Part shown: in pieces, positions 269 through 46,008 of the stretch
Layout of the letters: every line of letters begins with the position of its first letter
Numbering within the stretch: the stretch's first letter is position 1
IMG/VR virus record: IMGVR_UViG_3300028831_000087
Location: 1 to 46,228 of that record
Source: a virus
Direction: 5' to 3' (one strand)
DNA length: 46,228 bases
Translations under genes and position numbers: made by a program
Notes under the pieces: model-generated
Database searches by the model: none
Told to the model about the DNA's origin: nothing
The model's input: the letters and a program-made list of their open reading frames with translations, nothing else

Positions 269-305
269 TAACCCACCGGTAGTCCCAACACCCCAAAATG
301 CCTCT

Positions 306-791
306 ATGAGCATAATTCTCAAACAAAAACCTGATCAGGACGACTACTACCGCCTTGATTCAACTGGTCCGAATAGCGGAACGTTCTACTCTAAGCGTTA
401 TTTCGCAACAAAGGAGCACTTAGAGAGATATCTTGACCTATCTCCTGAACGTAAGATCGTAAGAATAGTCCATTTCTCTAAAAGAATTGAAGACAGACAA
501 ATATTCGAAAACAGAGACGAGATAACAATTTGGCGCGTAACTCATGCTATTACTAATGAAGTGAGAAATTTCCTTAACGAGCAAGAAGCCATAGCTTTCA
601 GAGACACGGACCCCGCGCATTTCTTATCTTCAGGAATAGAGCCACCGAAAGAATTGGACACTTTTAAAAAGAACTTTCGAAGGCATCCCCATAAAGTCAT
701 CGAGTTATCAAAGGTTCCTACTCTCGATGAAATGATGAGGCAGGCAGTAGAAGCGGTACAACGAGAAAGGGAAAGAGAAGATAAAAGATGA
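306..791 (+). CDS. Hypothetical early protein, first gene of the replication operon
   Basis: The 161-residue product has no family I recognise. It is hydrophilic and mixed alpha/beta in appearance, with a C-terminal helix ending in a very charged EREREDKR tail. The frame is open back to an ATG at 186. However, 186-305 is C-rich, uses codons (CCC, GCC) unlike the rest of the genome, and contains the inverted iteron-like repeats, so I prefer the ATG at 306. Neither start has a clear ribosome-binding site. Its stop overlaps the next ATG (ATGA at 788-791), which implies translational coupling to the ribbon-helix-helix gene. The start is uncertain; the reading frame itself is likely real. Confidence 0.65.
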   Translation: MSIILKQKPDQDDYYRLDSTGPNSGTFYSKRYFATKEHLERYLDLSPERKIVRIVHFSKRIEDRQIFENRDEITIWRVTHAITNEVRNFLNEQEAIAFRDTDPAHFLSSGIEPPKELDTFKKNFRRHPHKVIELSKVPTLDEMMRQAVEAVQREREREDKR

Positions 792-955
792 AACCAATGG
801 TAACACTATCAGTCTCGGTTGAACCAGAAATTGCAGAATATCTTGAGTACTATGCTAGCGAGAATAATACTAGCAGAAACGCAGCACATAGACAAATTCT
901 AATTGAATGGTACGAGAAAAAGAAGATGGCTTGGTTAGAACATAAGGATGAATAA
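788..955 (+). CDS. Small ribbon-helix-helix (CopG/Arc-like) DNA-binding protein
   Basis: The 55-residue product begins with a short beta segment (MVTLSVSVEPEIAEYLEYYA), then a turn (SENNTSRNA) and a second helix. This is the classic ribbon-helix-helix layout, in which the N-terminal strands of a dimer read the DNA major groove. Such proteins are usually phage or plasmid repressors or copy regulators. It overlaps its neighbours at both ends (ATGA at 788, TAATG at 953-957). It lies next to the early promoter and the palindromes at 91-105, so autoregulation is plausible but unproven. Confidence 0.65.
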   Translation: MKPMVTLSVSVEPEIAEYLEYYASENNTSRNAAHRQILIEWYEKKKMAWLEHKDE

Positions 956-1737
956 TGACAAATTGCTCAGTCTGTAAAGAACAAATAACCGATATCGAAA
1001 TAATCATCGACCCGAAGCATTCCGTTTGCATTTCATGTTCAAATTGTCAAGTTTGCGGCAAGCAGGTAACTATTGACGACATAAGAACCTGTTTAATCCA
1101 CAATCGAACAATTAAACATGATTCATGCGCGCGCGTCCCCCGACGAAGATGCAATTATCTGGACAATCACGGTCAGCAATGCGATAAATGGTTCCCCGCG
1201 ATAGATTCAACCAAGCTCTGTGAGAATCACAGAGGAATCATAAGCTCAAACGGAACGAGCGATAAACTAAACGAAACGCCAAAATACATAGACCTAGTAA
1301 ATGATCAGAGACAATACTGTTATCATTTTCTAGACGGGACCGCGCAAAATCAATCTCAGAAGCTGATATTCGAGTTTAAAGACGACGAAGACGGATCAAT
1401 ATTCGATAAGCTAGATTCCCATATAGCTTTCATTGAGAAAGTCTTAGAGGACATGAAAGCTCGTCTTCACTCCGCTAGGGCTGTCAGAGGGGAGAAACTT
1501 GACGCTCTATCTGAATCAGAGAGAAGCGAACTCCGAAAGATAAAGCTTGATAAAGCAGTTAAAGAACCGAAAGTCAAAGCAGATAAAGCTCCCTCATTAA
1601 AGAAAGACCCAGTTTCATATCTAATGAAAACCAAGAAAATGAGCGAAGCCGACGCTAAAGAATCACTCAATATGGACGTAGACGCTTTGTTAGCTAAATT
1701 CGAATTAGCTCGAAAGAATAAGGAGATAAGTAAATGA
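955..1737 (+). CDS. Zinc-finger protein with a LIM-like N-terminus and a C3H finger
   Basis: 260 residues. C4-x2-C7, H22-x2-C25, C28-x2-C31 (or C31-x2-C34) and C46-x2-H49 give the ligand order of a LIM-type double zinc finger. A second cluster, C66-x9-C76-x12-C89-x2-H92, has the spacing seen in C3H fingers of the WRC type. The second half is charged and lysine-rich, with likely helices around residues 150-260. This suggests a nucleic-acid- or protein-binding adaptor. No catalytic motif is visible. The start overlaps the previous stop by one base, and the end overlaps the next gene (ATGA). Confidence 0.7.
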   Translation: MTNCSVCKEQITDIEIIIDPKHSVCISCSNCQVCGKQVTIDDIRTCLIHNRTIKHDSCARVPRRRCNYLDNHGQQCDKWFPAIDSTKLCENHRGIISSNGTSDKLNETPKYIDLVNDQRQYCYHFLDGTAQNQSQKLIFEFKDDEDGSIFDKLDSHIAFIEKVLEDMKARLHSARAVRGEKLDALSESERSELRKIKLDKAVKEPKVKADKAPSLKKDPVSYLMKTKKMSEADAKESLNMDVDALLAKFELARKNKEISK

Positions 1738-1925
1738 TTTTACAACACGCAAAATACTGTCAATTTTGTGGCGAGAGACAAGACACTTGTCCTCACCTGC
1801 CTAGCATATTTGGACCCACGGAAAAAGAAGCCCAAGAAATACGTGATGCAATAAAGAGAATAAACGAAGTTCACCCTAAACTCGTTTCTAAATTCGAAGC
1901 GGCGCGCGCGACTAAGAACAAATAA
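1734..1925 (+). CDS. Small Cys/His (zinc-ribbon-like) protein
   Basis: The 63-residue product carries C9-x2-C12 and C19-x1-H21 near the N-terminus, in a YCQFCGERQDTCPHLP segment that could hold one metal ion. A helical, charged C-terminus follows. The ATG overlaps the preceding stop. Its function is not known. It is one of an unusual number of small Cys-rich products in this operon. Confidence 0.65.
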   Translation: MILQHAKYCQFCGERQDTCPHLPSIFGPTEKEAQEIRDAIKRINEVHPKLVSKFEAARATKNK

Positions 1926-1944
1926 AATAAATAAGGAGAATGAA

Positions 1945-2136
1945 ATGCAAGTTATCGAAAACTGTCAGTTAGAGTGGGACAATATTAGGGGAGTCTTGTA
2001 TGTTCACAATAAGGACACTGGAGCCACGGTGCTACGAATATGTCGCTTAGAGTCGAGAGACGACAAGCGATCGCAATTAAAAGACGGTCAAATAGATTTA
2101 ACCGGACCATTTGAGTTAGCTAGTTATCCAGAGTAA
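1945..2136 (+). CDS. Small hypothetical protein
   Basis: 63 residues with no recognised family. The ATG is preceded by a good ribosome-binding site (AAGGAG at about 1933-1938). The middle (LEWDNIRGVLYVHNKDTGATVLRIC) looks like beta strands, so a small beta-rich binding protein is possible. Confidence 0.65.
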   Translation: MQVIENCQLEWDNIRGVLYVHNKDTGATVLRICRLESRDDKRSQLKDGQIDLTGPFELASYPE

Positions 2137-2145
2137 AGGAACAAA

Positions 2146-2328
2146 ATGAAATTCTGGTCAGTGCTTACGGACACAGCAGAGCGTAAAGTAAGAATCGCTC
2201 TAGACGGATCACGCTCAATAATCACATTCGACGCTAACGAAGCACGAGATATCGCAGTAGCTATAATGATAGCAGCTGATAGAATCGAAGAAGAGAACGA
2301 TAGATTGAAACTAAAGGCAATAAAATGA
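2146..2328 (+). CDS. Small hypothetical protein
   Basis: 60 residues with no recognised family. An N-terminal beta-like half is followed by a helix that is hydrophobic on one face (ARDIAVAIMIAADRI) and an acidic/basic tail. A short purine-rich AAAGGA lies before the ATG. The stop overlaps the ATG of the next gene. Confidence 0.6.
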   Translation: MKFWSVLTDTAERKVRIALDGSRSIITFDANEARDIAVAIMIAADRIEEENDRLKLKAIK

Positions 2329-2498
2329 GCGGAGAGATAAAGTTGCCAAGAAAAAAGCACTCACATCGCTGTCCGATTTGCGGATATGGAGTTTATTGTT
2401 ACAAAACTCAATGCACTAAACCTCAGAGATTCGAATGCGCTAATTGTATCTGGAAACGCAATAATGAAGCGATGAAAAATGAAGCGGTGAAACAATGA
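2325..2498 (+). CDS. Small zinc-ribbon protein
   Basis: A 57-residue frame reads ATG at 2325 to TGA at 2498, overlapping both neighbours by four bases (ATGA). C16-x2-C19 and C38-x2-C41, with further C25 and C30 between them, form a typical zinc-ribbon arrangement. It is basic at both ends, so nucleic-acid binding is plausible. Confidence 0.65.
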   Translation: MSGEIKLPRKKHSHRCPICGYGVYCYKTQCTKPQRFECANCIWKRNNEAMKNEAVKQ

Positions 2499-2728
2499 GT
2501 CCACAAAAGATTCCTCAAAATGAGATAAAAAGATCACGTGGTTTTCAATTGAAGTACCGAGACTTCAAAGCATTGGAGAGAATAATCGAAGACTATAACT
2601 CAGACGATAACGGAGTAATCAATTTCAATGAAATGAAGCCAGACGAGAAAGATATTCTCTGGAAAATAAAGACAATAATCCGAAACATGGAGTCAGTAAG
2701 ATTGAGAGTAAATAGTCCAGAATTATAG
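2495..2728 (+). CDS. Hypothetical helical protein
   Basis: 77 residues, mostly charged helix (FKALERIIEDYNSDDNG, ILWKIKTIIRNMESVRLRV), with no recognised family. DYNSDDNGVINFNE superficially resembles an EF-hand-like acidic loop, but its length and context do not support calling calcium binding. It sits eight bases before the helicase gene and may be translated together with it. Confidence 0.6.
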   Translation: MSPQKIPQNEIKRSRGFQLKYRDFKALERIIEDYNSDDNGVINFNEMKPDEKDILWKIKTIIRNMESVRLRVNSPEL

Positions 2729-2736
2729 GAAACTAA

Positions 2737-4398
2737 ATGCCATTCTTATCAGAGAAATGTCCGACCTGTCACAAAGTAGCTGAGACTGAGAAAGTCTTTA
2801 AGATAGGAGATAAGCTCGTTAATAGATTAAAATGCGGTCACTTACTCCTCGCGAAGCAGTTACGCGAGGCATCGCCTGAACAGATAGTCAGTTTAGACGG
2901 TAAGAAGCTTTACAAGTTCCAATGCGACGGAGTTAGATTCATAGAAGAATCGAACGCGCGCGCGTTAATCTCAGACGAGATGGGATTAGGAAAGACTCCG
3001 CAAAGCATCGCGGCTATATTCTTACACCCAGAACTTCAGCCTTTTTTAGTAATCTGTAAGTCTTCCCTCAAAGCTCAATGGCGTCACGAGATAATGCGTT
3101 GGATGGGAGAAGACTATTTCGCTCAAGTAATTGACACGCCGAATGACCTTCCGTTAATCGGATTGCGCGCGTTTATTATGAGTTACGATATCTTGAGAAG
3201 ATTCGATGAAAAGAAGAAAAAGAAGAAAAATTCTCCGCGAAGCGGCGCGATTGATTTAGAAGGATCTGATGAACGCAACAATGGTCAAACAGACGAAACG
3301 ACAAGCAAGTTAATCACGCTAATCCGAAAGGCCAAGATCAAGACAATCATCCTAGACGAGTGTCAGCAAATCAAGAATCCAGAAGCCCAGAGGACGGTAC
3401 ATGTTAGACAAATCTGTAAAGAAGTCGATCATGTAATCGCGCTATCAGGCACACCGATAAAGAACAACGCAGCGGAATACTTCCCAGTTCTGAACATACT
3501 CAAACCAGAAATGTTCCCACGTTATTCAACATTTCTAATGAACGAGTGCGACTCTTATTTCACAGGATACGGTTACAAAACCGGAGGACTGAAAAACCCT
3601 GAAGCTTTCTTGAGAAAAACATCCTCGTTCGTGATCCGAAGGACACGAACGGAAGTCCTACCCGACCTACCCAAGATAAGAAGAAGCTTCCAATTTCACG
3701 AACTCGGTAAAGAAGTCGAGAAAGCCTATATTGAAACGTTTAAAGAGTTCAGAGATAAGTATAACTCCGTCTCAAGCGACGATATGAGTTTCGAAGAGTC
3801 CGGAAACATTCTCGCTTATTTGTCCAAAATGCGACATCTTTCCGGTTTATCTAAAATCAATCCATGCATTGATTACGTAATGGAGATCATGGGATCAACT
3901 GACGATAGAGTAACGATATTCGTACATCATAAAGATGTTGCGGAAATACTTGAATCGAAGTTAAATTCGCTATTCAAGGAGCTAGATATTCCCCCGTGCG
4001 CGCGACACGAGGCAGGATCAAGCTCGCTCGACACGGAAAGAAGCTTCGAAAAGAGCAGAGTCCTAATCTGTTCGACACTCGCCGGAGGTGAGGGATTGAA
4101 TCTTCAGCACCTTTGCAGGAGATTCGTAATGCTTGAGAGACAGTGGAATCCGGCAAACGAAGAGCAGGCGGAAGCTCGATTTCCCCGTCCAGAAGGAATC
4201 CGTACAGACTTCATAGACGGAGTCTATATGGTCGCAATAGGGACCGTTGACGAGTTCTTCTCTGAGATAGTCGAACGAAAACGCGAGATAGTAACAAAAA
4301 CGCTCGGCGGCGAAGCAGCCGAGTGGGATCAAAGTTCGCTCATTAAGGAACTCGCTGAGACTCTCAGCATGTCCGGAGGAAGACGATGGAGTATTTAA
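2737..4398 (+). CDS. SNF2-family (superfamily 2) DNA helicase/translocase
   Basis: 553 residues. A short N-terminal Cys/His cluster (CPTC at 8-11, CGH at 33-35) precedes the ATPase. Motif I is DEMGLGKT (80-87), motif II DECQ (207-210) and motif III SGTP (237-240). Motif V is STLAGGEGLNLQ. Motif VI is a divergent EARFPRPEG in place of the usual QAxxRxxRxGQ. A lysine- and glycine-rich, probably disordered insert lies at about 159-190. These motifs define an ATP-dependent dsDNA translocase or remodeller, common in phage replication modules for fork remodelling. Its C-terminus overlaps the start of the lipoprotein gene. Confidence 0.92.
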   Translation: MPFLSEKCPTCHKVAETEKVFKIGDKLVNRLKCGHLLLAKQLREASPEQIVSLDGKKLYKFQCDGVRFIEESNARALISDEMGLGKTPQSIAAIFLHPELQPFLVICKSSLKAQWRHEIMRWMGEDYFAQVIDTPNDLPLIGLRAFIMSYDILRRFDEKKKKKKNSPRSGAIDLEGSDERNNGQTDETTSKLITLIRKAKIKTIILDECQQIKNPEAQRTVHVRQICKEVDHVIALSGTPIKNNAAEYFPVLNILKPEMFPRYSTFLMNECDSYFTGYGYKTGGLKNPEAFLRKTSSFVIRRTRTEVLPDLPKIRRSFQFHELGKEVEKAYIETFKEFRDKYNSVSSDDMSFEESGNILAYLSKMRHLSGLSKINPCIDYVMEIMGSTDDRVTIFVHHKDVAEILESKLNSLFKELDIPPCARHEAGSSSLDTERSFEKSRVLICSTLAGGEGLNLQHLCRRFVMLERQWNPANEEQAEARFPRPEGIRTDFIDGVYMVAIGTVDEFFSEIVERKREIVTKTLGGEAAEWDQSSLIKELAETLSMSGGRRWSI

Positions 4399-9905: not shown

Positions 9906-11135
9906 ATGCCCGAAATAGCGATCAATCAAATCATTCCACCAGATACGAATTACCAATACGACCGTGAAGAACTTGAGCGACTCAAGAAATCAATCGAGGA
10001 AAACGGTTTATTTCACTCGATTATTCTTCAGGAGACAGAAAATCCAGAATCTTTTAAAGTTATTTCCGGGCGCGCGCGATTTGTAGCGATGCAAGAGTTG
10101 AAAAAGGAATTTATCTCAGCGAATATCCTCCCATTTTCCTGCCCAAATCCGCTAGAGATAAGCCTGCATGAAAACCTAAGAAGACATAACTTAGCCTGGT
10201 TCGATCAGGTTGAATTAGAGAAAGAGCTTCACGAATTGCGAATCTCTCAATACGGAGAAAAGCCAATAGGAAGACCTAAAGAGGGTCCTAAACAAGGCTG
10301 GAGTCAAAACGACACTGCAAGGGAACTCGGCCTCGCTTTAGGAACTTTCTCGCAGGATATGGCGCTAGCGACGGAATTAAGAAAGAATCCGTACTTACGA
10401 AATATCAAGGATAAAACGACAGCACTCAAAATCATCAGACAGATCACTAAGCAGCAAGTCTCAGAAATCGAACAGATGCTTCCGTCCGACATAGAGATGG
10501 ACGACGTCTTTCTAGGAGACTCTGAAGTAATCTTGAAATCATTTCCGAATGAAACGTTCGATTGTTGCATTTGCGATCCTCCATGGAGCGAATATAAAGA
10601 CGAAGCTTTGAGATCAGATCAATTGACTCTTTTACCGATCTTTCTGGAGCTTTACAGAGTTCTGAAACGCGATGCTTTCCTTTTCGTCGTGACCTCAACA
10701 ACGGATTTCTATTTTTACATGAAAGAACTTCAAAAACTCCGATTTCGAGTTCAACATTATCCAATCATTTGGCATAAGCCGAACACGATCACGTACGGAC
10801 GCGCGCAATGGCAATTTGCTAGAGACTACGAACCAATCGTAGTCGCGGTAAAAGGAGATCCTATTCTCACGACTAGAACAGAAATGAGCGCTATTCTCAA
10901 GTACGACAATGTGCATTATTCAAGAATGATTCACCCACATGAAAAGCCAGTCTTACTAATGGAATATCTGGTCAAATCATCAACCAATCCAGGTGCTAAA
11001 ATCGTCGATCCATTTGCAGGAAGCGGCGTCACATTAGAAGCTTGCAAGAGAACCGATAGAAGATACATTGGAATCGAGAAAGAAAAGAAATTCTACGACA
11101 AGATAGTTGAAAGGCTAGGAAGAAATGCTCTGTGA
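9906..11135 (+). CDS. ParB-like domain fused to DNA methyltransferase
   Basis: 409 residues. The N-terminal ParB/Srx-like domain (1-120) has SGRARFVAM where ParB proteins have a GxRR-type motif, and HENLRRHNL. A helix-turn-helix follows (WSQNDTARELGLALGTFSQ, 132-150). The C-terminal half is an N4-cytosine/N6-adenine methyltransferase, with catalytic motif IV CDPPW (223-227) before the SAM-binding motif DPFAGSG (368-374), the beta-class order. Such fusions are known in phages and are thought to modify phage DNA. ParB domains bind palindromic parS sites, which makes the palindrome 500 bp upstream (9389-9403) a candidate target. That link is inference. The last 11 bases overlap the next small gene. 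Confidence 0.88.
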   Translation: MPEIAINQIIPPDTNYQYDREELERLKKSIEENGLFHSIILQETENPESFKVISGRARFVAMQELKKEFISANILPFSCPNPLEISLHENLRRHNLAWFDQVELEKELHELRISQYGEKPIGRPKEGPKQGWSQNDTARELGLALGTFSQDMALATELRKNPYLRNIKDKTTALKIIRQITKQQVSEIEQMLPSDIEMDDVFLGDSEVILKSFPNETFDCCICDPPWSEYKDEALRSDQLTLLPIFLELYRVLKRDAFLFVVTSTTDFYFYMKELQKLRFRVQHYPIIWHKPNTITYGRAQWQFARDYEPIVVAVKGDPILTTRTEMSAILKYDNVHYSRMIHPHEKPVLLMEYLVKSSTNPGAKIVDPFAGSGVTLEACKRTDRRYIGIEKEKKFYDKIVERLGRNAL

Positions 11136-11280
11136 TCAAATAGATTGCTTAAATCAAGCCGATAGGTCTTATAGATGCGCGACTTGTGACTCCTACTTCT
11201 GCTCTCAGGAATGTCTCTCTGCGCACGTAAGAAGAATGATTGACAATGAAGACTTAATTTCGGAGCGCGCGACTGAATGA
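11125..11280 (+). CDS. 51-residue MYND/HIT-like zinc-finger protein
   Basis: ATG 11125 lies inside the end of the methyltransferase gene and TGA 11278-11280 overlaps the polymerase ATG. Ligands C3, C8, C18-x2-C21, C26-x3-C30 and H34 follow the start of the MYND/HIT finger pattern (C..C...C-x2-C-x4-C-x3-C-x3-H). It may be a protein-interaction module for its polymerase neighbour. This is inferred from position. Confidence 0.6.
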   Translation: MLCDQIDCLNQADRSYRCATCDSYFCSQECLSAHVRRMIDNEDLISERATE

Positions 11281-13727
11281 CCTATGTTGGCGCTGAGGGT
11301 CCAGCCAATGCCAGACTAGCCGCGATAGGGGAAGCTCCAGGAGCAGAAGAAGAGAGGCTAGGAAGGCCCTTCGTTGGATCGACTGGCAAGATTGTCGAGG
11401 ACTTACTCTCTTCACTAGGAATGCCGAGAGAAGAAGTTTATCTCTCTAACGTGGTAAAGATCAGGCCGCCTGGCAACAATCTTGAAGCTCTCAATTTAAT
11501 CGGAAAATCAATCGACGATTTCATTCCTCAGCTACAAGAGGAAATTAGAAAGTTAAGTCCAAACGCTGTTATAGCTTTCGGGAATACAGCTTTAACAGCG
11601 CTAACCGGACTCAAGGGAATTGAGAAGTATCGAGGCTCAATTCTTCCCTGTAGTTTTCACAGCACTAAGATAATCCCCACGATTCACCCTGCCTCGCTGC
11701 TTCATTCTGAAGGCGAAGAGGGAAAGCTTCGTTCCTGGAAAGATATCTCCTACATCAAATGGGACATAGCGCGCGCGATTGAACAAAGTAAGTTCTCCGA
11801 GTATAATCCACCGAGGCGTAATTTAATAGTCGCGCGCGATGCCTTACAACTAGATAGATTTCTCAGTAAATACGAAGGCTCGTCTTATGTCTCAGTCGAC
11901 ATAGAGACTTTTAAGACGATTCCTCTTTGCATTGGGATCGCTTTCTCTTCCGATGAAGCAATAAGCGTTCCCCTCTTTTACTCCACGATGACTCGTTCAG
12001 ACCAGATTTCCTGTTGGGAAATGTGCGCGCGATTACTTGCAGACCTAGACGTTCAGAAAATAGGTCAGAATTTCAAGTTTGACGAGAGGCTATTAAGAAC
12101 TTGCGTCAATGGGACAGTGAATTTTGGCTTTAAAGTTAACTCTTTCTTCTTCGACACGATGCTCGCGTTCAGGACTCTTTATCCAGAGTTGCCAAGTTCG
12201 CTACAATTTTCAACCAGCGTTCTAACAGAGGAAGTTTATTATAAAGATGAAGGCCGAGAATATAATCCTAAAAAAGATAAGTTCGACCGTTTGTTACTTT
12301 ATAACGCCAAAGATGCTGCTGTTACTTATGAAGTGTTTGAAAAAGAAACTTGCGAACTTATTAATAATGATCAGCTCGATTTCTTTTTCGAGCGAGTCAT
12401 GCCCTTACATCCTTTTTACTCGAGAATCGAGCAAAGAGGAATCAAGAGAGACAACTTTCAAAAACGAGTCCTTGAAGAAAAGTACAAAGGTCAACAAAAA
12501 GAACTCGAAGAGAAGCTCTATTCGCTAACGCAAGAGTACTTAGAGGAGCCAATTAACGTTAACTCTAACGGACGCAATGGCGATGTTCCGAAATTACTTT
12601 TCGGCTTGATGAAGATTCCAGTAAGAAAAGCGACTGACGAGAAGACTCTCGACGCTTTAATGCGAAATGCAGTCAAGGATGTTAACAAAAGACAAATCTT
12701 AGAGTTAATTCTCGAGATTAGAAAGGTCAAGAAGACAATAGGGACTTATGTCGATCACGAAACAGATTACAGGAATCGTACTCTCACCGGGGTTAGAATT
12801 GCACTTGAGACTGGAAGGACTGCTAATGGAATCCTTAAGGCTCCAGTCACAACTAGGCCAATGGGACTCGCTTTTCAAACTATTACAAAACATGGAGAAG
12901 TCGGAACTGACTTGGGAAGTATGTTCGTCCCTGATGAAGGTCATGTCTTCGTTGAGCCAGACCTTAGCGCGGCGGAAGCAAGAGTTGTCGCAAATCTTGC
13001 AAGAGATGAAAGACTCTTAAAAATCTTTAAATATGATCTTGACTTGCATAGAATCACGACTGGCTGGATTGAAGGAGTATGTCCTGATGATTTGCTGAAT
13101 GAGTTTTTTAATGAAACTGATGGAGAGAAAATTCACGAATTGAAAAGGCAAATCACGAAGATTCTTAAGGCGCGCATCGACGATGAGCAAAGACAAGAGG
13201 GAAAGAAATTCCGACATGCTGCGAATTACGACATGGGCAAGCGTGAGGCCTCAAGGCAGACTGGACTATCCGAGTGGCGTACGAATCAAATTTTGACAAA
13301 GGTGCACGCCACGAATCCAAATATTCGAGACGTTTTTCACAAAGAGATTATCGACGCATTAAGAGATAATAATCGAGTTTTAATCTCTCCCCACGGAAGA
13401 CAGAGGCAATTCTTGAACCGTTGGGGAGATGAACTGTTCAAGGAAGCTTACGCTTTTATCCCGCAAGCGACTGTATCAGATCATTTAAAGTTTTCAGCGC
13501 AAGTTATAGAATCACGTGCCCCGTGGATTCAGATACTCTCAGAAAGTCACGATTCATTCTTAGCTCAAGTCCCGATATCTCATGTTGACCGAGCGAAAGA
13601 GATTATTACTGAAGAACTTGAGAAGCCTATAGATTTTTCAAGGTGCTCATTACCAAGGAATAGCCTCATTATACCCTGTGAAGTGAAATTGGGAAAGAAG
13701 AATTGGGAAACAATGGAAGTAATCTAG
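11277..13727 (+). CDS. Uracil-DNA glycosylase - 3'-5' exonuclease - DNA polymerase A fusion
   Basis: 816 residues. Residues 5-170 match family 4/5 uracil-DNA glycosylases: GEAPGAEEE (18-26), GRPFVGSTGK (29-38) and IHPASLL (136-142). They contain only one cysteine in this region, so the usual four-Cys Fe-S site is absent. Residues 200-360 are a DEDD exonuclease (DIE 208-210, NFKFD 265-269, YNAKD 342-346). The rest is family A polymerase: motif A DLSAAEARVVA from D562, motif B around RHAANYDMG (646-654), motif C HDS at 758-760 in place of the common HDE. It is the likely replicative polymerase. The attached UDG suggests uracil surveillance at the fork. ATGA overlap with the finger gene upstream. 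Confidence 0.92.
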   Translation: MTYVGAEGPANARLAAIGEAPGAEEERLGRPFVGSTGKIVEDLLSSLGMPREEVYLSNVVKIRPPGNNLEALNLIGKSIDDFIPQLQEEIRKLSPNAVIAFGNTALTALTGLKGIEKYRGSILPCSFHSTKIIPTIHPASLLHSEGEEGKLRSWKDISYIKWDIARAIEQSKFSEYNPPRRNLIVARDALQLDRFLSKYEGSSYVSVDIETFKTIPLCIGIAFSSDEAISVPLFYSTMTRSDQISCWEMCARLLADLDVQKIGQNFKFDERLLRTCVNGTVNFGFKVNSFFFDTMLAFRTLYPELPSSLQFSTSVLTEEVYYKDEGREYNPKKDKFDRLLLYNAKDAAVTYEVFEKETCELINNDQLDFFFERVMPLHPFYSRIEQRGIKRDNFQKRVLEEKYKGQQKELEEKLYSLTQEYLEEPINVNSNGRNGDVPKLLFGLMKIPVRKATDEKTLDALMRNAVKDVNKRQILELILEIRKVKKTIGTYVDHETDYRNRTLTGVRIALETGRTANGILKAPVTTRPMGLAFQTITKHGEVGTDLGSMFVPDEGHVFVEPDLSAAEARVVANLARDERLLKIFKYDLDLHRITTGWIEGVCPDDLLNEFFNETDGEKIHELKRQITKILKARIDDEQRQEGKKFRHAANYDMGKREASRQTGLSEWRTNQILTKVHATNPNIRDVFHKEIIDALRDNNRVLISPHGRQRQFLNRWGDELFKEAYAFIPQATVSDHLKFSAQVIESRAPWIQILSESHDSFLAQVPISHVDRAKEIITEELEKPIDFSRCSLPRNSLIIPCEVKLGKKNWETMEVI

Positions 13728-13778: not shown

Positions 13779-15005
13779 ATGAGTTGGTTAGAAGTTCTCT
13801 TAGATTCAACAAAAGAGGCCGAAGCCCCGATTCGCTACTTCTGGTGGTCAGGACTTGCTGCGCTTTCGGCTGTTGCAGGAAAGAAAGTTTATTTACAGCG
13901 CGGCCCTTTCTATAAACTTTACCCTAATATCTATGTTGCTCTCGTCTCCGCAAGAAGTGGCCTAAGAAAAGGAATCCCAATCATGGTGGCAAAGAAGCTT
14001 GTCACGGATTTAGATTCCATTAGAGTCGTTTCAGGCTGTAGTTCTATTCAAGCGTTGACTAAAGAGCTATCAATGCAACAGACCTTCAAATCCGGCGCAG
14101 TTGTCAACGAAGCTCAAGGATTAATGATTTCAGATGAATTTGAGTCCTTTCTAACTGAAGACCCAAGAGCTTTAACTTATTTAACTGCTCTGCATAATAC
14201 ACATGAGCACGAGGACTCTTGGAAAAAACGCTTAAAAGGCTCACCGTTAGAAGAACTAAAATCTCCATGTCTAACTCTTCTAGTCGCAAGCAATGAAGCT
14301 CTATTCGAGTCCGTAGTCAAACAGAAAGACATCGAAGGAGGCTTCATTGCAAGGACATTCATAGTCCATGAGTCGAAGAAAAAACTAATAAATGATCTTA
14401 TTTACACGGATGAAGAAATCGAAGATCTCTTAGAAAAAGACTCAAAAGCGCACGAGTTCCTGACGACGAGGCTCAAAGAAGTCAATAAGCTATCAGGAAA
14501 GATGGCTCTCGATTCTAAGGCAGTTAATCTCTATAGAAGCTGGTACGAGCAACTTTCTCTCTCAGATTTCGACGATAAAACAGGCTCAATAGATCGACTC
14601 GGAGATCAAGTTCTCAAAGTCGCGATGTTGATCTCAATATCGAACAGTAATTCTCTTTCTATTAGTGAGAACGATTTAGAGACTGCAATCGACGCTGCTG
14701 AGTTATGTATTTCAAACACGCGTCAGATTTCAATGGAGAAAGAGAAAGGTGATATCAACCCAGTAATTCAAAAGGTTCTCAAGGAATTAATCAAGGCTCC
14801 AGAACAAACTCTAACTCGAAAGAAATTAATGATAAATACGCACATCGAGTCTATAATTCTCGACCGCGCGATAGATACCTTAATTCAGCGTGGCGCGATT
14901 GATGAACCTAGACGAAATGGGAGAAAAGAGATCTATTACAAGATGAAACCTGACGTATTTAGTACTTACGTGAAGTTCCAAGCAATTGAAAAGAGGATGA
15001 ATTGA
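13779..15005 (+). CDS. DUF3987-like phage ATPase/primase-helicase candidate
   Basis: 408 residues. A conserved aromatic opening (RYFWWSGLAALSAVAGKKVYL) leads to a P-loop-like SARSGLRKGI (57-66). It lacks the Ser/Thr that normally follows the Lys. A Walker B-like GLMISDEF with acidic pair at about 119-120 follows, and a winged-helix-like C-terminus (LTRKKLMINTHIESIILDRAIDTLIQRGAI). This is the layout of DUF3987-type proteins found with phage polymerases and treated as helicase or primase-helicase candidates. The degenerate P-loop leaves ATP hydrolysis in doubt. AGGAAG precedes the ATG. Confidence 0.7.
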   Translation: MSWLEVLLDSTKEAEAPIRYFWWSGLAALSAVAGKKVYLQRGPFYKLYPNIYVALVSARSGLRKGIPIMVAKKLVTDLDSIRVVSGCSSIQALTKELSMQQTFKSGAVVNEAQGLMISDEFESFLTEDPRALTYLTALHNTHEHEDSWKKRLKGSPLEELKSPCLTLLVASNEALFESVVKQKDIEGGFIARTFIVHESKKKLINDLIYTDEEIEDLLEKDSKAHEFLTTRLKEVNKLSGKMALDSKAVNLYRSWYEQLSLSDFDDKTGSIDRLGDQVLKVAMLISISNSNSLSISENDLETAIDAAELCISNTRQISMEKEKGDINPVIQKVLKELIKAPEQTLTRKKLMINTHIESIILDRAIDTLIQRGAIDEPRRNGRKEIYYKMKPDVFSTYVKFQAIEKRMN

Positions 15006-19516: not shown

Positions 19517-20056
19517 TTATCCCTGCACTCGCCACTGTTTTCTCGGAGCCTTTTCATTATTCAGAAGCGCAGATATTTCATCCAGTTTCTCAGTCATATC
19601 GACTTTATTTTCATTAAAGTCAGCTCTTATCGCTGTATTCTCTCTCACTGACCAAGCATGTTGAATTTTTAACTTATAAGTCGTAAACCAGAATCCAGCT
19701 ATAGTAATTATCACTGTCGTAATCTGACCAGCTACGATTCCGTAAAAGTTATACTTACTTTCGTCCTTTGCTTTAGCGACTTCTGACTGAGTAAATGCAG
19801 CCCTGACCGCATTATCTATCGCAGCCTGCTGCGTTAACTTCGCATTAGTCTGCTCCTGTTCAGAGAGTATCCTTGCCTTCTCTTGAACTGCCGCTGTCGC
19901 TTCTTTTAAAGCAGTCCTTGATTGAACTTCATTAGCTTGAGATAAGGCTCTCAAATGTATTAATTCATTCTTCGACCTTTCTAATTCAGCAGCGAGTTCT
20001 TGCTCTCTTGTCTGCGCTTGAGCTTGCGCTAGAAAAAGAATTATAATAAACTTCAT
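19517..20056 (-). CDS. Exported coiled-coil protein with C-terminal membrane segment
   Basis: 179 residues. The N-terminus (MKFIIILFLAQAQAQTREQ) looks like a signal peptide or short anchor. Residues 18-95 are a long Ala/Glu/Gln coiled coil. GIVAGQITTVIITIAGFWFTTYKL (about 106-129) is a transmembrane helix, and a charged tail follows. A coiled coil plus membrane segments and location near the late end make it a candidate spanin or lysis accessory, or a host-envelope factor. No family match is claimed. Its stop lies two bases before the next ATG. Confidence 0.55.
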   Translation of the reverse strand: MKFIIILFLAQAQAQTREQELAAELERSKNELIHLRALSQANEVQSRTALKEATAAVQEKARILSEQEQTNAKLTQQAAIDNAVRAAFTQSEVAKAKDESKYNFYGIVAGQITTVIITIAGFWFTTYKLKIQHAWSVRENTAIRADFNENKVDMTEKLDEISALLNNEKAPRKQWRVQG

Positions 20057-20415
20057 GCTTTAATTCTAAGAGCTTTCACTTCTTCAAAATGATAATGCTT
20101 CTTTAAAAACTCAATGTATTCAGGATCAAACTCTTTCTCAAAAATAACAAAAGCATCGCTGATTCCTAGCTTCTCAGGAATCTCTTTCTTTAAGAAATTC
20201 ACTGTATAATGAATAGCGCGCGCGCGTTGTATTTTATTCAAGTTCTTCTTAAGAACCAGCGTTGGCTCTACAGTCGCGCGCACCCAAAATAAGCCAAGCA
20301 ATTTCCCTTTCTCACCGATAGCCTTAGCGATCTTGAATGGACCATTAAATAGACTAGGAAGCTCATAATTTTCAAACGCGACTAAATCATGAATATCTAA
20401 GTCTCTTATTAACAT
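20053..20415 (-). CDS. GNAT-like protein of the tail region
   Basis: 120 residues. The order (an initial helix, a strand LLGLFWVRATVEPTLVL, a central helix IQRARAIHYTVNFLKKEI, a strand DAFVIFEK, then YIEFLKKHYHFEEV) resembles a shortened GNAT acetyltransferase fold. Short-tailed phages often carry such a protein near tail or internal virion genes (compare T7 gp13). A clear acetyl-CoA pyrophosphate loop is not visible, so it may be structural only. It overlaps the next gene by four bases. Confidence 0.45.
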   Translation of the reverse strand: MLIRDLDIHDLVAFENYELPSLFNGPFKIAKAIGEKGKLLGLFWVRATVEPTLVLKKNLNKIQRARAIHYTVNFLKKEIPEKLGISDAFVIFEKEFDPEYIEFLKKHYHFEEVKALRIKA

Positions 20416-20428
20416 TATTTAACAAAAT

Positions 20429-20818
20429 TTAACAAGGCAAGCCCTTGAAAGAAATCGCGACAACTATCGTGCAGGAGACGTTAACTGTAGTACCAAGCGA
20501 ATCAGTTACTCTAATCGTGTAAGCAAAGGTTCCAGCTTGCGAGGGAGTTCCTGTTAAAGTTCCCGAGGAACTCATTGCTAATCCTGGAGGAAATGAGCCA
20601 GAAATCAAAGTTAAAGTAAATGGAGCTACTCCGGACAAAATAGCGAAGAAGGAAGAGTAAAAGATTCCTAACGAAGCAGCTGAGACCGGACAAGTAACTA
20701 TAATCGGCGGCGGAGGAGCCAATACTGCGTAGAGAATAGTTTTACTAACGCTCGCTCCTGTGGGAGGCTTTAGGACAGAGTAGAGATTTAGCTTACTAAT
20801 AGCTTCGAAATCAGCCAT
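20429..20818 (-). CDS. Ig-like (He_PIG) domain protein
   Basis: 129 residues. Residues 60-120 (SGVAPFTLTLISGSFPPGLAMSSSGTLTGTPSQAGTFAYTIRVTDS, written here in part) show the hallmarks of the putative Ig/He_PIG domain: a GxPPGL turn, SGxLxGTP and a final F-x-V-x-DS strand. Such domains decorate phage virions and bind cell surfaces weakly. It lies directly after the LamG-like fibre gene, so a tail-fibre or decoration role is likely. Confidence 0.65.
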   Translation of the reverse strand: MADFEAISKLNLYSVLKPPTGASVSKTILYAVLAPPPPIIVTCPVSAASLGIFYSSFFAILSGVAPFTLTLISGSFPPGLAMSSSGTLTGTPSQAGTFAYTIRVTDSLGTTVNVSCTIVVAISFKGLPC

Positions 20819-20820
20819 TC

Positions 20821-21789: not shown

Positions 21790-21793
21790 AGTT

Positions 21794-22478: not shown

Positions 22479-22481
22479 ATC

Positions 22482-25305: not shown

Positions 25306-25485
25306 CTACTTTGCTGGGGTCACTTGATAAATCTGCAATCGAGAAACATATCCAGCGTCTAGAACATGAATCTGTTCTACTCTACGAAGTGCTTCCCTGG
25401 CTTCGGCCTCAGTTTCATAGCCTTTTCCTCCAGCGTCCTGCATTTCCTGAGCTTCCTCAGCACTTAAAGCAATATACCAGCTCAA
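25306..25485 (-). CDS. 59-residue hypothetical protein, TTG start
   Basis: TTG at 25485 overlaps the stop of the connector paralogue (TTGA), with a strong GGAGGGAG about ten bases upstream. The TAG at 25306-25308 abuts the next ATG. The product (SWYIALSAEEAQEMQDAGGKGYETEAEAREALRRVEQIHVLDAG) is a small alpha/beta protein of no recognised family. The perfectly fitted ends and the ribosome-binding site support it. Confidence 0.6.
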   Translation of the reverse strand: MSWYIALSAEEAQEMQDAGGKGYETEAEAREALRRVEQIHVLDAGYVSRLQIYQVTPAK

Positions 25486-26108
25486 GGTTTAATACTCCCT
25501 CCGGGCATTTGAGGCGCGCGCCCTCTATTAGAAAGGATGACTTCAGCTAAGGAATTGTCAGCTAATTGCGCGAGCGCGGTCATTTCGGCAGCCTGCCCGA
25601 CAGCCCCCGCAGCTAAAGCTGCGGTGCGAGGAGCTAGATAGAGTTCTCCGTCTATAAAGCCTATTACATCGGTGTTAGCTTGCGGAATCGCTAAGGAACG
25701 CCAGTAAAGCATGAGAATCTGTCGAACAGCGCTTGAGCCTATGAAGGTCACGACTTCGTTCTTCCAAGACCAGTAAATCATCGTAGTCGTCGGAAGAACA
25801 TTTGGCAGCGGATCAGTCTCGGTCATTAGTGCATACGTATTGATCGCTCCACCTGAAGAGGTCTCCCAGAGTTGAATTGGAGCGACCAGATTCGCCGGCG
25901 GCGTCGCAAAGGCGGTTACGTTAGCTCCGACTACTTCAGTGTACTGAGCTTTCATAACCGGAGCGGCCGCGCGTCTAAGTTTTATTTGAAGCTCTCTATG
26001 TGCTTGTTGTAACTTAGGAATCAACGCAGCGTCGGTCCAATTCGAGGCCGCGTCATCGTTCAAGAGAGTCCGAGCGGTAGCTAATACGACTGAAGTTAAT
26101 ACGGACAT
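25482..26108 (-). CDS. Head-tail connector/adaptor protein, paralogue B
   Basis: 208 residues. The opening (ATARTLLNDDAASNWTDAALIPKLQQAHRELQIKLRRAAAP), the YWSWKNEVVTF segment and LAIPQANTD align with paralogue A. A is more charged, whereas B is Ala-rich at its C-terminus (AALAAGAVGQAAEMTALAQLADNS). Both are likely ring components of the neck. A gene duplication may have produced two distinct rings, as in phages whose adaptor and tail-gatekeeper are different proteins. Confidence 0.65.
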   Translation of the reverse strand: MSVLTSVVLATARTLLNDDAASNWTDAALIPKLQQAHRELQIKLRRAAAPVMKAQYTEVVGANVTAFATPPANLVAPIQLWETSSGGAINTYALMTETDPLPNVLPTTTMIYWSWKNEVVTFIGSSAVRQILMLYWRSLAIPQANTDVIGFIDGELYLAPRTAALAAGAVGQAAEMTALAQLADNSLAEVILSNRGRAPQMPGGSIKP

Positions 26109-26112
26109 AGTT

Positions 26113-26316
26113 TTAAATAAAAGGCTCGAATCTTTCTCTCAGGTAATCATGCATTGTCTCAGCAGCGTTGAAGCATTTCTCTATCAATCTACGAGCGTCC
26201 TCTAAGCATTCAGGAACTCCAGTTCTTATACATTCCTGCTGGAATAAACAGGACGCAAACGAGTTTATAGCTCGTAATCTCTCTTGTTGATCTTGCTTCT
26301 CTGCTGAGCTTATCAT
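26113..26316 (-). CDS. Small Cys-containing hypothetical protein
   Basis: 67 residues from the ATG at 26316, which lies directly after the palindrome at 26320-26334 in the direction of transcription. In-frame starts at 26325 and 26343 would run through the palindrome. Four cysteines (SCLFQQEC, PECLED, EKCF) lie in a helical protein. No family recognised. Position in the neck cluster suggests a structural or assembly role. Confidence 0.5.
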   Translation of the reverse strand: MISSAEKQDQQERLRAINSFASCLFQQECIRTGVPECLEDARRLIEKCFNAAETMHDYLRERFEPFI

Positions 26317-26319
26317 ACC

Positions 26320-26334
26320 GTTCATGCCGTGAAC
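26320..26334. repeat. GTTCA-N5-TGAAC genome palindrome, copy 2
   Basis: GTTCATGCCGTGAAC with flanks TACC and ACTTAA. It sits between the stop codon of the minus-strand gene at 26337-26732 and the start of the gene ending at 26113. Orientation matches the plus-strand copies even though the genes here run on the minus strand. Confidence 0.75.
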
Positions 26335-26336
26335 AC

Positions 26337-26732
26337 TTAACACTGTCCGACGAACATAGCCGCGATTACAATCAGATCACCAGATACATCTGCAGGGATA
26401 GCTGTTGCATTAGGAAACTCAGCCAGTCCTGCAGCAGCAGCGCCGTTAGAAGTGAAAATCTTCAGGAGTCCAGAAGAGGCATTAACACCAGGAACGTATC
26501 TGTATTCAAAGAGAGTCCCAGTCGTCCCTGCGCCTAGCCCTTGGACTATCGCTCCTTGGGGCGCGCGCGATGCTTTAACTAGAGGGATAGCGAGGCTACA
26601 AGCAATTCCTCCTGTTGTATAAGTCGCAGGGTCTGCACTAATTGAGACAACTCCAAGTGCAAAATATTTATTCCCTGCGGAGAACGAGTTTCTTTCATCT
26701 GTCAGTGTAATCGTCGCAACGGCAGCCGCCAT
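26337..26732 (-). CDS. Small beta-rich head decoration-like protein
   Basis: 131 residues, Ala/Gly/Thr-rich and almost without charge (ATITLTDERNSFSAGNKYFALGVVSISADPATY ... LLKIFTSNGAAAAGLAEF). AGGAGAG precedes the ATG. The composition resembles the virion proteins at 33695 and 36864. Likely a capsid decoration or fibre subunit. No named family. Confidence 0.5.
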   Translation of the reverse strand: MAAAVATITLTDERNSFSAGNKYFALGVVSISADPATYTTGGIACSLAIPLVKASRAPQGAIVQGLGAGTTGTLFEYRYVPGVNASSGLLKIFTSNGAAAAGLAEFPNATAIPADVSGDLIVIAAMFVGQC

Positions 26733-26745
26733 GATCTATCTCTCC

Positions 26746-27372
26746 TTAGACTTTCGCCAATCTCTCTTCAATCTCTTTTTGAAGTTTAGGGTTAACCACG
26801 TGTCCATTAGAACAGACTGGCAACCCTTTAGGAACTGAAGTACCACAATAAGGACAAGAGGAACTTTCCATCGTCGTTTGTGGACTCATCCACTCATGCT
26901 TACTCGAATCCCAACCGATGTATTCAGCGCACTTTCTCTGAAAGGTGCTAATTACATTATGCTGATGATACCGCGACCAGTCGTTGTCAGCGAGCATACA
27001 AATATTTAAAAACCAACGTTTCTGCTTTATCAGGTATCTTGCGATATCGACTTTGAACTTCTCTTGAATCTGAATAACGTTGAGATTCTCAGGAATCCAA
27101 AATAGCGCCGGACTTGCCTCGTCATCCACAGAGAGCTGTGAATTTGTATAATCTTCCACAATGGCGCGCGCCACTTGATCAGAAGGATCAGGGACTCGTA
27201 GGGACCCACGCGTTTCATCCAAGTAAGTATAATGATAACTCGTTCCCACATGGAGTAACTCAGGAGTCTTCATGTCCGAGGCTTTAATTTGGAAATACGG
27301 AGGATAGATTCCCGGCTTATGGGCCAGGATCTCAAATGGAACTAGACTTACGACTGTTGATTCAAGCGACAT
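26746..27372 (-). CDS. Virion-region protein with C-terminal zinc ribbon
   Basis: 208 residues. The first 165 form a mixed alpha/beta domain (VDIARYLIKQKRWFLNICMLADNDWSRYHQ). The C-terminus has CPYC and CSNGH knuckles (SSCPYCGTSVPKGLPVCSNGHVV), a rubredoxin-type zinc ribbon. It follows MCP and another hypothetical gene. It may be a chaperone or minor capsid protein. The start overlaps the previous gene by 11 bases. Confidence 0.55.
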   Translation of the reverse strand: MSLESTVVSLVPFEILAHKPGIYPPYFQIKASDMKTPELLHVGTSYHYTYLDETRGSLRVPDPSDQVARAIVEDYTNSQLSVDDEASPALFWIPENLNVIQIQEKFKVDIARYLIKQKRWFLNICMLADNDWSRYHQHNVISTFQRKCAEYIGWDSSKHEWMSPQTTMESSSCPYCGTSVPKGLPVCSNGHVVNPKLQKEIEERLAKV

Positions 27373-27901
27373 CTTTAAAGTCCTTCACTCCCTTCAGACC
27401 TCTCGTATACGCAATTGCGTTCCGAATCGCTCCAGACGTTCGGAAATCCGGCGCGTCGTCAAAAGTTTCCATCACGTATTTCATTTCCTTCTCTTCCAGA
27501 ACTCTTGGATCAATTTCTGTATCTTTATCAACATTCCCACGCATGTAATTAAGAATGAAATCCAAGACCTTTCTAGTTGGCGGAAGATAATTTCCACTCT
27601 TATCCTCAAAGACATAGATCGGAAGGTAATCTCCGTTGATGGAGTCTGGAAGCTCATTATTAGCGGTTAGATTACCTGGTGCCCATTTCTCTAAGATGAA
27701 TCTTTCTTTGATGTAGTTATATTTTTTGACTTTTCTCGTCTCAATGACTTCACGAATAAAGAGACCAGACCTAGTGAAGTCCCTAAACAGACCATGACGG
27801 TTCTCAAGAACATTTTCAGACCATACAAGTCGATACATGACTTGCCCAGTTATCGAGTTTCCTTGCGTAGCGAGATATTTGTTTAAATCGTCAATTAGCA
27901 T
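27362..27901 (-). CDS. Hypothetical protein downstream of the capsid gene
   Basis: 179 residues, alpha/beta, with several Arg/Lys-rich helices (FIREVIETRKVKKYNYIKERFILEKWAPGN). No family recognised. It is the first gene after the MCP terminator, so it is expected to be expressed at a lower level than MCP. Confidence 0.55.
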   Translation of the reverse strand: MLIDDLNKYLATQGNSITGQVMYRLVWSENVLENRHGLFRDFTRSGLFIREVIETRKVKKYNYIKERFILEKWAPGNLTANNELPDSINGDYLPIYVFEDKSGNYLPPTRKVLDFILNYMRGNVDKDTEIDPRVLEEKEMKYVMETFDDAPDFRTSGAIRNAIAYTRGLKGVKDFKDVA

Positions 27902-27906
27902 CTTTT

Positions 27907-27933
27907 AAAATCGGGGGAGACTTAATCTCCCCC
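27907..27933 (-). terminator. Intrinsic terminator after the major capsid gene
   Basis: On the minus strand GGGGGAGA and TCTCCCCC (27926-27933 and 27913-27920) make a perfect 8-bp stem around a 5-base loop. It is followed two bases later by TTTT (27907-27910). It stands 36 bases after the MCP stop, where partial termination would favour MCP over downstream genes. Confidence 0.75.
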
Positions 27934-27968
27934 ATGAGGAGTCACACGAGTACCAGTTTTTCCTTCCT

Positions 27969-29237
27969 TTAATATCCAGAAGGAATCGCTAATCCGTAGA
28001 TGTATGAGGCCCCGGCCGGCTGATTCATAAATAAATTGAAGGAAGTGACAATATAAAAGATCCAAGCAGCGGCCACTCCACCGCTTGGTCCCCTCAGTTC
28101 CCAAACTCTCTGATTGTTATCAGGATTCGTGTAAAAGCCGCAAGGCCTCAGTTCCGCGCGGCCCCAAACTTCCTGGTCGATAAAGTCGATTCTTGTTCTG
28201 TCCCAGGAATAGCTTATCTTCAGCGGCGCGCCCGCGATTCGCATGTTATCATTGAAATAGAGGTCAAGACCCTCTTCCTTAGCCGCTTTGTCAACGCGAA
28301 TCACGTTGAATCCAAGTTCCTCGTAAGCTGACTGCTGAGCTTTATGAGTCCAAGCGGTCATCTTAGAGCCTTTATTGATTCCAACTCGATCGCCGATCTT
28401 GTTCATCGCAAGTCGAGGAAGAGGAAGCGTCAGAGCCGAGCTGTTCGCATTCACAGCGTTAGCTCTGATCTCAGGATTAATTGATCTATCAAAGCTAAGC
28501 CAGGTTCCAACTGAAGAGTTGGAGTTATGGTATTTAACTCCATAGAGCGCCGTGGGAGGAATCATCTGAAGACCTCCGGAAACAATTAGATCTCCAGCCG
28601 TAGCTCCAGCGACCGCAGGAACCTGAATCTGACTGTTCGCTTGATCGTAATAAATGATCTTCGCTTGATTCTGGATTCCTCCAGCGGTTCGACAGACCGT
28701 CAAAGCAGAGTTGAAAATATTGATCTGCTGCTTCGGCCTTAAGAGTCGAACTCGGAATCCATCGGTCGTACAGGTATAAGTGTCGATTCCAGCGGTCGTC
28801 GTGACCGAAGTGATCGTCCCCAAGACTCCGGTTCCGTCGGTCATGCATTGAGAGTCAACGTCTCTTCGAAACTGCTTCATCTCTGTTGCTAGGCTATGTC
28901 TAAAGGCGTTAATAACAGCTTTTCTGGTGTTATCTGTTGACCAGATGGTTTTAGCTGTCATTTCAACTGGATGCTCAAGGTGAACTGAGTTTATCAGTCC
29001 CTTATCGAAATCCGAGATATCACCACGGCCCATGTCGCCACCGTCTGGGTCGTAATAAGATGTATTCCCATTGGGCCTGATCTCGAGTGGAACTCTCATG
29101 TCCCTAGAGGAAATTACCTCTACTGGTCGTTTCTCAATGGTACTGTAAAAGACATCATCCCGATCAAAAAGAGCCGGAACCTTTGGCAGGACTCTCTCAA
29201 GTTCTGCCCCAATGACCTGACTTTCGTTGCCTGCCAT
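27969..29237 (-). CDS. Major capsid protein
   Basis: 422 residues, no signal peptide, with a balanced alpha/beta composition. An N-terminal arm (ELERVLPKVPALFDRDDVFYSTIEKRPVEVISSRDMRVPLEIRPNG) precedes an HK97-like order of E-loop and spine/axial regions. A basic residue cluster in the middle (RKAVINAFRHSLATEMKQFRRDVD) resembles the spine helix. It follows a scaffold-like gene and has its own leader hairpin and terminator, both typical of the most abundant virion protein. AAGGA precedes the ATG. Exact family not assigned. Confidence 0.85.
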   Translation of the reverse strand: MAGNESQVIGAELERVLPKVPALFDRDDVFYSTIEKRPVEVISSRDMRVPLEIRPNGNTSYYDPDGGDMGRGDISDFDKGLINSVHLEHPVEMTAKTIWSTDNTRKAVINAFRHSLATEMKQFRRDVDSQCMTDGTGVLGTITSVTTTAGIDTYTCTTDGFRVRLLRPKQQINIFNSALTVCRTAGGIQNQAKIIYYDQANSQIQVPAVAGATAGDLIVSGGLQMIPPTALYGVKYHNSNSSVGTWLSFDRSINPEIRANAVNANSSALTLPLPRLAMNKIGDRVGINKGSKMTAWTHKAQQSAYEELGFNVIRVDKAAKEEGLDLYFNDNMRIAGAPLKISYSWDRTRIDFIDQEVWGRAELRPCGFYTNPDNNQRVWELRGPSGGVAAAWIFYIVTSFNLFMNQPAGASYIYGLAIPSGY

Positions 29238-44029: not shown

Positions 44030-44062
44030 GAGAGGGATTCCTGATAGGGCTAAATCGTACTA

Positions 44063-44123: not shown

Positions 44124-44170
44124 ATAAAAAGTGAACAATTTAATTCCTTTGTTTTCAACAACTTACGGCC

Positions 44171-44196: not shown

Positions 44197-44222
44197 TATG
44201 TGGTAGGCTAGTTCGGAGGCCC

Positions 44223-45416: not shown

Positions 45417-45444
45417 TTCAAACCAGTTTCAAGCCCAAGGCCCC

Positions 45445-45489
45445 GAAAATCCGCTACGGTATAATATATTAAAGCCTAAGCGGATTTTC
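45445..45489. terminator. Hairpin separating two plus-strand transcripts
   Basis: GAAAATCCGC (45445-45454) and GCGGATTTTC (45480-45489) make a perfect 10-bp stem with a 25-base A/T-rich loop. The T tract is within the stem, so it may end the 45204 transcript or insulate the promoter next to it. The start of the -35 (45493) follows four bases later. Confidence 0.5.
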
Positions 45490-45492
45490 CCC

Positions 45493-45521
45493 TTGACTTT
45501 TTAAGCCAGAAGCGTTACAAT
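45493..45521 (+). promoter_or_regulatory. Near-consensus sigma70 promoter
   Basis: TTGACT (45493-45498), a 17-base spacer and TACAAT (45516-45521) together match the consensus at ten of twelve positions. Predicted start near 45528 gives a 25-base leader to the ATG at 45553. It is the strongest promoter seen in the window. Confidence 0.7.
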
Positions 45522-45552
45522 TTCAATGGGCTTAGTTCCCAAGAAGGAAAAT

Positions 45553-45891
45553 ATGGAAACTCAAGATTGCGTAGTTACCGTAAACGTAGGCGACAAGGAA
45601 TTTTCCGAAACCTACAAACAAATCGTTCGCACTTCCGTAACAGTTGACGACTTACTCGGCTTGCTTAAAGACGAAAAAGAAGCAAAACAAGTAATTGCCG
45701 ATTGGCATTACGGACAAGATTTGCGCGCAAAAGCAGCAACAAGAAATAAGATCCTTGCAAAAGAAGCTGGTCCGGAGAAATCTTTCGAAAAGAACGTGAA
45801 AGAGTTCATGAAACTCCGTGAGATTAACGGAAAACCAGTCACTGAAGAGGCTGCAAGGCGTATTGTCAAGGCTATGCAAGAAGCTGAATAA
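45553..45891 (+). CDS. Hypothetical protein in its own transcription unit
   Basis: 112 residues from the ATG at 45553, with AAGAAGGA upstream. An ATG at 45526 coincides with the predicted transcription start and is unlikely. Strand-like start (VVTVNVGDKEFSETYKQIVRTSVTVDDLLGLL), then helices with Lys/Ala/Glu (KAATRNKILAKEAGPEKSFEKNVKEFMKL, EEAARRIVKAMQEAE). Rather uniform codon use. The private promoter and terminator suggest a gene expressed on entry or independently of the other arms. No family recognised. Confidence 0.65.
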   Translation: METQDCVVTVNVGDKEFSETYKQIVRTSVTVDDLLGLLKDEKEAKQVIADWHYGQDLRAKAATRNKILAKEAGPEKSFEKNVKEFMKLREINGKPVTEEAARRIVKAMQEAE

Positions 45892-45920
45892 GCTTTTACT
45901 CTTGTAGTAGTTCAACTCTC

Positions 45921-45952
45921 AAGGCCAATCTTTAAAGAGATTGGCCTTTTTT
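45921..45952 (+). terminator. Strong intrinsic terminator
   Basis: AAGGCCAATCT and AGATTGGCCTT form a perfect 11-bp stem with a 6-base loop, followed by TTTT. It ends the 45553 unit and isolates the origin-like region after it from read-through. Confidence 0.85.
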
Positions 45953-46008
45953 CTTGAGAAAACAGCTTGGTACTCGAAAAGCGAACAAAAGGCGACCCCA
46001 AGGTACTA

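Follow-up and report, generated by a model that had tools for sequence, protein, structure and literature searches.

The region running through the join of the two contig ends was analysed in a viral DNA of 46,228 nucleotides (IMG/VR record IMGVR_UViG_3300028831_000087, at its full length referred to as the window), and this control region of about 430 bp after trimming of the ends is probably an initiator-dependent replication origin of the iteron/unwinding-element type (approximately 46010 via 46170/1 to 267, 428 bp), an assignment based on sequence comparison. An origin had been proposed here in the original prediction; it is still the best reading and it has gained support from an architecture conserved in relatives, from a genome-wide minimum of duplex stability and from a 25-bp near-palindrome (25-mer) that several unrelated named phages carry next to primase genes, although the nucleotide skew and the initiator candidates put forward at that time did not strengthen it. 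Origins of virulent phages are seldom annotated, and a virus-enriched, non-coding 25-mer lying by the weakest duplex would be a searchable origin marker for uncultured phages.

Anatomy and conservation of the region through the join

Following the circle, the region consists of a terminator, three direct units, an 18-bp palindrome, the AT core, the 25-mer, a 15-bp inverted repeat and two inverted units (Table 1), with the least stable DNA of the genome bracketed by the three tandem units on the left and the two inverted ones on the right. It thus combines tandem repeats with helical spacing (three plus two inverted 11-bp units) and an adjoining AT-rich unwinding element, which is the genome-wide stability minimum at 46128. 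The tandem units outscored all 500 dinucleotide shuffles of the region. The palindrome was unremarkable genome-wide and is not diagnostic, since its length was reached in 8 of 30 whole-genome shuffles (and in 2 of 500 shuffles of the region). Most of the previously listed elements were recovered: the hairpin terminator before the region, the perfect 18-bp palindrome, the A/T-rich run at the join and the palindrome at 91-105, which is an inverted repeat, all stand, and both sets of 11-bp units are present, only their frame had to be moved by one base (46010-46042 and not 46009-46041; 246-267 and not 247-268). That listing lacked the 25-mer at 23-47, the most strongly conserved feature of the region. 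The gene may start at 186 or at 306, and the former start would place the inverted units inside the open reading frame. No Rfam match was obtained within the window.

The seam of the join is artefactual, nevertheless the joining of the two ends itself is right. The terminal 36 bases are an Illumina adapter remnant, that is read-through and not phage DNA: the first 12 bases match exactly and the five mismatches sit in the middle of the stretch, which may have let it slip past trimming. The 22 bases before them are an assembly overlap, and removal of both leaves a phage circle of about 46,170 bp. In the relative G003, whose terminase is 83% identical, both flanking genes stand in a single contig at similar spacing (3130 bp between the 45526-gene homologue and the helicase gene, vs 3016 bp via the join in the window), therefore the region earlier drawn through the join is sound apart from its adapter and overlap. 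In relatives the corresponding stretch lies internal to contigs.

The same layout was detected at the same place in G001, G003 and G013, with unrelated repeat letters. In G013, five copies of ATGTCTCGGGT are followed by a 25-mer, the AT core, another 25-mer and five units in inverted orientation; in G003, four copies of GGCACGTATGA are followed by the AT core, 25-mers and inverted units; G001 has four to five copies of CCGTTTAGTGC, its TATATA core is flanked by 25-mers on either side, and no clear inverted units occur on the right. It had been proposed that absence of the repeat units from close relatives would speak against an origin; the letters are indeed absent, but the arrangement is kept with other letters. 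The distance between the outer edges is 428 bp in the window, 424 bp in G013 and 447 bp in G003, and facing iterons with free letters and a nearly fixed span (424-447 bp) suggest that initiator assembly is geometrically constrained. Duplex stability reaches its genome-wide minimum at the AT core in five of seven genomes (the window, G001, G003, G009 and G013), and in G005 the core ranks second lowest. When all carriers of the 25-mer were considered, the enrichment of tandem iterons near it was modest (11% vs 3% of control stretches at 0.85), and the iterons are chiefly a feature of the clade of the window. In G009 (L182-L184) the orientation of the 45526-gene homologue to the helicase is the reverse of that in the window, which places the origin-like region of G009 at a divergent switch. 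The first conserved gene past the region, 955-1737, codes for a Cys-rich, zinc-ribbon-like protein, 64% identical in G001 and 61% in G003; its N-terminal Cys part is missing in G003 and G005.

Table 1. Positions of the features in the window
Feature	Position	Strand	Basis or remark
Intrinsic terminator at the end of the 45526-45891 unit, bordering the region on the left	45922..45952	+	stem AGGCCAATCT/AGATTGGCCT, then T-run
Three tandem 11-bp iteron-like units, CGGCGMACGTC	46010..46042	+	CGGCGCACGTC, CGGCGAACGTC, CGGCCAACGTC; 0/500 shuffles
Perfect 18-bp palindrome at the edge of the AT core	46115..46132		TATAGGGTATACCCTATA; not significant genome-wide
AT core, candidate unwinding element	46128..46170		duplex stability lowest in the genome (60-bp window starting at 46128 and running through the join to ~17)
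AT core, continued	1..22		duplex stability
Conserved 25-bp near-palindrome	23..47	+	TAACTCATTGATTCTAAAGGACTTA; 0 expected in shuffles
15-bp inverted repeat	91..105		sequence, CGGTAAATTTTACCG
Two inverted 11-bp units	246..267	-	sequence
Second, weaker 25-mer copy	44141..44165	-	2 mismatches; divergent gap, 112 bp upstream of TerS-like gene
Candidate origin helicase: a DUF3987 protein predicted to be an MCM-like AAA+ helicase, with a winged helix at its C-terminus	13779..15005	+	structure model
Assembly overlap	46171..46192		repeats 1-22 (21/22)
Illumina adapter read-through	46193..46228		31/36 to AGATCGGAAGAGCGTCGTGTAGGGAAAGAGTGTAGA

The 25-mer in viral sequences

The degenerate pattern TAASTYRTTGAWWMTAAAGGRYTTA was found exactly in 51 viral stretches, where chance would give about 0.02 if roughly 43 Gb of sequence is assumed. 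Nearly all of these matches lie outside open reading frames longer than 450 nt; the one in L119 is inside such a frame, and that in L108 overlaps the ends of two. The same pattern occurred in seven stretches of 257 Gb of genomes, of which three represent a single coding locus in Nitrospirae and a fourth overlaps coding sequence; no match was obtained in plasmids, nor in E. coli genomes by BLAST. With up to three mismatches it is present in 27 of 32 records, the backwards control giving none. The copies are frequently paired, and a search with TAANNNNTTGA alone in the vicinity of known copies revealed 32 more sites, vs 11 in reversed sequence; many of these again bear the right half AAGGACTTA. 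The literature search for its letters returned nothing but a primer and a taxonomy paper, both unrelated.

In named phages the BLAST E-values of the 25-mer are individually weak (0.03 to 4), therefore the argument from these phages is one of location. With the first query all annotated matches were non-coding except one in a cyanophage tail-lysozyme gene, while the second query was noisier and gave several coding matches. In Stenotrophomonas phage A1432, Burkholderia phage WTB and Klebsiella phage K49PH164C2 the 25-mer closely precedes a gene for a primase or primase/helicase, and in KL1 it is three small genes away from the primase. Inward-facing copies flank an AT-rich core in KL1, Henu15 and Flyfo Tbat2_2, and in Henu15 inverted TGTTGCAG-type repeats lie outside the pair. 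The publication on KL1 (PMC3483164) reports no cos site and contains no description of an origin.

We regard it as possible, with more doubt than confidence, that the 25-mer is an undescribed origin element common to phages whose structural lineages are unrelated, with a single conserved factor as its reader (a host protein or an unrecognised phage protein), and usable to locate origins in uncultured phages. One may then ask what protein recognises a common site in phages with no universally shared replication gene among those tested. Co-occurrence with a single replication protein (DUF3987, Sak4 or PolA) was considered and set aside, none being universal. An RNA hairpin was also rejected, since the arms of the window copy pair incompletely (TAACTC vs GACTTA) and the right arm is missing in several named phages; likewise a T7-class promoter, since the orientation to genes is variable and the proteins searched showed no phage RNA polymerase.

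Some loci carry the 25-mer in other settings. G028 (L156/L157) has at least 12 symmetric copies, TAANNNNTTGATATTCAANNNNTTA, over 9 kb (19806-28881), several of them paired in tandem around a GC-rich spacer of some 14 bp, and this cluster looks like a dispersed repeat element or an operator array. In L104 (Pseudomonas sp. Irchel s3h14, 4200-4340) GTGTTAC repeats, the 25-mer and inverted repeats occur 65 bp after a tyrosine integrase gene. In L216 (acidobacterial phage Tunturi_3, about 2600-3020) a 1.7-kb non-coding gap holds 13-bp tandem repeats, AATAAACGTACTC, and several 25-mer-like cores. The start of contig L117 (1-25) resembles the SMART template-switch oligo, and the 25-mer follows 35 bases further on.

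Proposed initiation and the replication proteins

The window codes for an SNF2-type helicase, an exonuclease, a Sak4-like protein, a DNA polymerase A fused to uracil-DNA-glycosylase and a DUF3987 protein. In the polymerase (11277-13727) the glycosylase domain is N-terminal (residues 7-155) and a 3'-5' exonuclease domain is also present. We infer that an initiator would bind the two facing arrays of 11-bp iterons and a second factor the 25-mer beside the AT core; the core would then melt, and the MCM-like DUF3987 helicase and polymerase A would be loaded, probably in both directions.

The AlphaFold2 model of the DUF3987 protein (pLDDT 82) has an AAA+ MCM fold with a C-terminal winged helix; the top Foldseek matches listed were all MCM (E 4e-8 to 1e-5), with TM-scores of 0.36-0.48 by query length. 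DUF3987 was previously predicted as a helicase family of mobile elements (PMC5862659), and the helicases SaPI Rep and SCCmec Cch2 work at repeat-bearing origins (PMC7581432). Three products, at 306, 788 and 13779, had been offered as initiator candidates. No homologue of the 306 product could be confirmed in viral contigs and none was present in 18 genomes searched, and the 788 product had no detectable relatives in the genomes searched, thus neither is conserved; the third is the MCM-like helicase, whose gene lies about 13.8 kb from the repeats and whose winged helix does not covary with the iterons.

Several observations weigh against an origin in the region. The GC skew, suggested earlier as a check, is lowest at 43.8 kb, some 2.4 kb from the region, and dips almost as low at 0.5-0.75 kb; nevertheless the skew tracks the coding strand (third-position skew has opposite sign on plus and minus genes) and is therefore undecisive. 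The region contains no exact DnaA box, the nearest TTWTNCACA being at 44253; a DnaA box is not obligatory in phage origins. One origin would not explain the scattered copies in G028. The winged helix of the DUF3987 protein is 83-84% identical between genomes with unrelated iterons, hence it probably does not read them, as judged from these comparisons; it might read the 25-mer, although a DUF3987 match is present in only 11 of 27 carriers. Finally, none of the tested replication families occurs in all carriers (Sak4 17/28, PolA 16/28, DUF3987 11/27).

Among described systems, the iteron origins of the lambda ori, P4 and pSC101 class share with the region the non-coding tandem repeats of about one helical turn by an AT-rich unwinding segment, but here two facing arrays in mirror order surround the AT core, a separate 25-mer is present and no adjoining Rep gene was identified. 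The SaPI and SCCmec origins, served by the MCM-like self-loading initiator helicases Rep, Cch and Cch2 (PMC7581432), resemble it in the AAA+ MCM-like helicase with a C-terminal DNA-binding domain and in short repeats as presumed binding sites, whereas here the helicase gene is not adjacent and its winged helix stays constant while the repeat letters vary. The Vibrio PLE origins read by RepA (PMC8263062) also have semi-palindromic repeats, of about 30 bp, in an origin module swapped among relatives; in the window, however, no RepA_N protein was identified and the repeats are 11-bp units and one 25-mer. The 21-nt repeats of T1-like phages (TLS, PMC11447400) are likewise a conserved short element recurrent in phage intergenic DNA, but unlike the 25-mer they have the consensus aaATAGCACnnnTTGnTAAAA, number about 21 copies per genome and always point in the direction of transcription.

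Other possible roles of the 25-mer

A variant of the origin assignment, which we consider unlikely, though the least so of the readings listed here, is that the 25-mer is a strong host IHF site within the origin and nothing phage-specific reads it. The left half of the window copy, TAANNNNTTGATT, fits on the other strand the IHF consensus, WATCAANNNNTTR, and the lack of a tested phage gene family common to all carriers would agree with a host protein. However, the right half (TAAAGGRYTTA) and positions that IHF ignores are conserved too, even in sites found by the left half only, which this variant leaves unexplained, and copies with TTGAAAA violate the consensus.

Only slightly less probable is a transcription-control hub, in which the 25-mer and the 11-bp units would be operators for phage or host regulators of the flanking early promoters, a role that could exist alone or on top of an origin. 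The 25-mer is near-palindromic like dimer sites, its copies in G028 lie in gaps between small genes (G034 has six to seven copies), and the second copy of the window precedes a TerS-like gene. Against this, its orientation to genes is not constant, and neither the coincidence of the AT core with the stability minimum nor the primase genes beside the 25-mer in named phages would be accounted for.

It is improbable that the 25-mer is a packaging site, that is a cut or TerS-binding site with contigs ending where the virion DNA ends. The adapter sets in precisely where the 25-mer would start (junction 22|23); among contigs longer than 25 kb, 4 of 27 end within 300 bp of it where 0.39 would be expected (P 6e-4; without the window 3/26, P 0.006); and 14 of 45 locus groups also carry a TerL or TerS-like gene, so a physical DNA end at the 25-mer is possible. 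But relatives read straight through, G003, G009 and G021 assemble as circles with end overlaps of 123-127 bp, KL1 has the 25-mer and no cos site (PMC3483164), the primase genes beside it in A1432, WTB and K49PH164C2 point to replication, and assemblies also break in AT-rich DNA.

An attachment or recombination site, with the 25-mer as tyrosine-recombinase core and the 11-bp units as arm sites, is very improbable since no Phage_integrase (PF00589) match exists in the window or 12 relatives and no matching attB-like site in bacterial genomes, even though attP layouts are resembled by an asymmetric 25-bp near-palindrome with flanking direct repeats and the prophage locus L104 has its copy just after the integrase gene.

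Apart from these features, the gene at 9906-11135 codes for an N6/N4 DNA methyltransferase to which a ParB N-terminal domain is fused.

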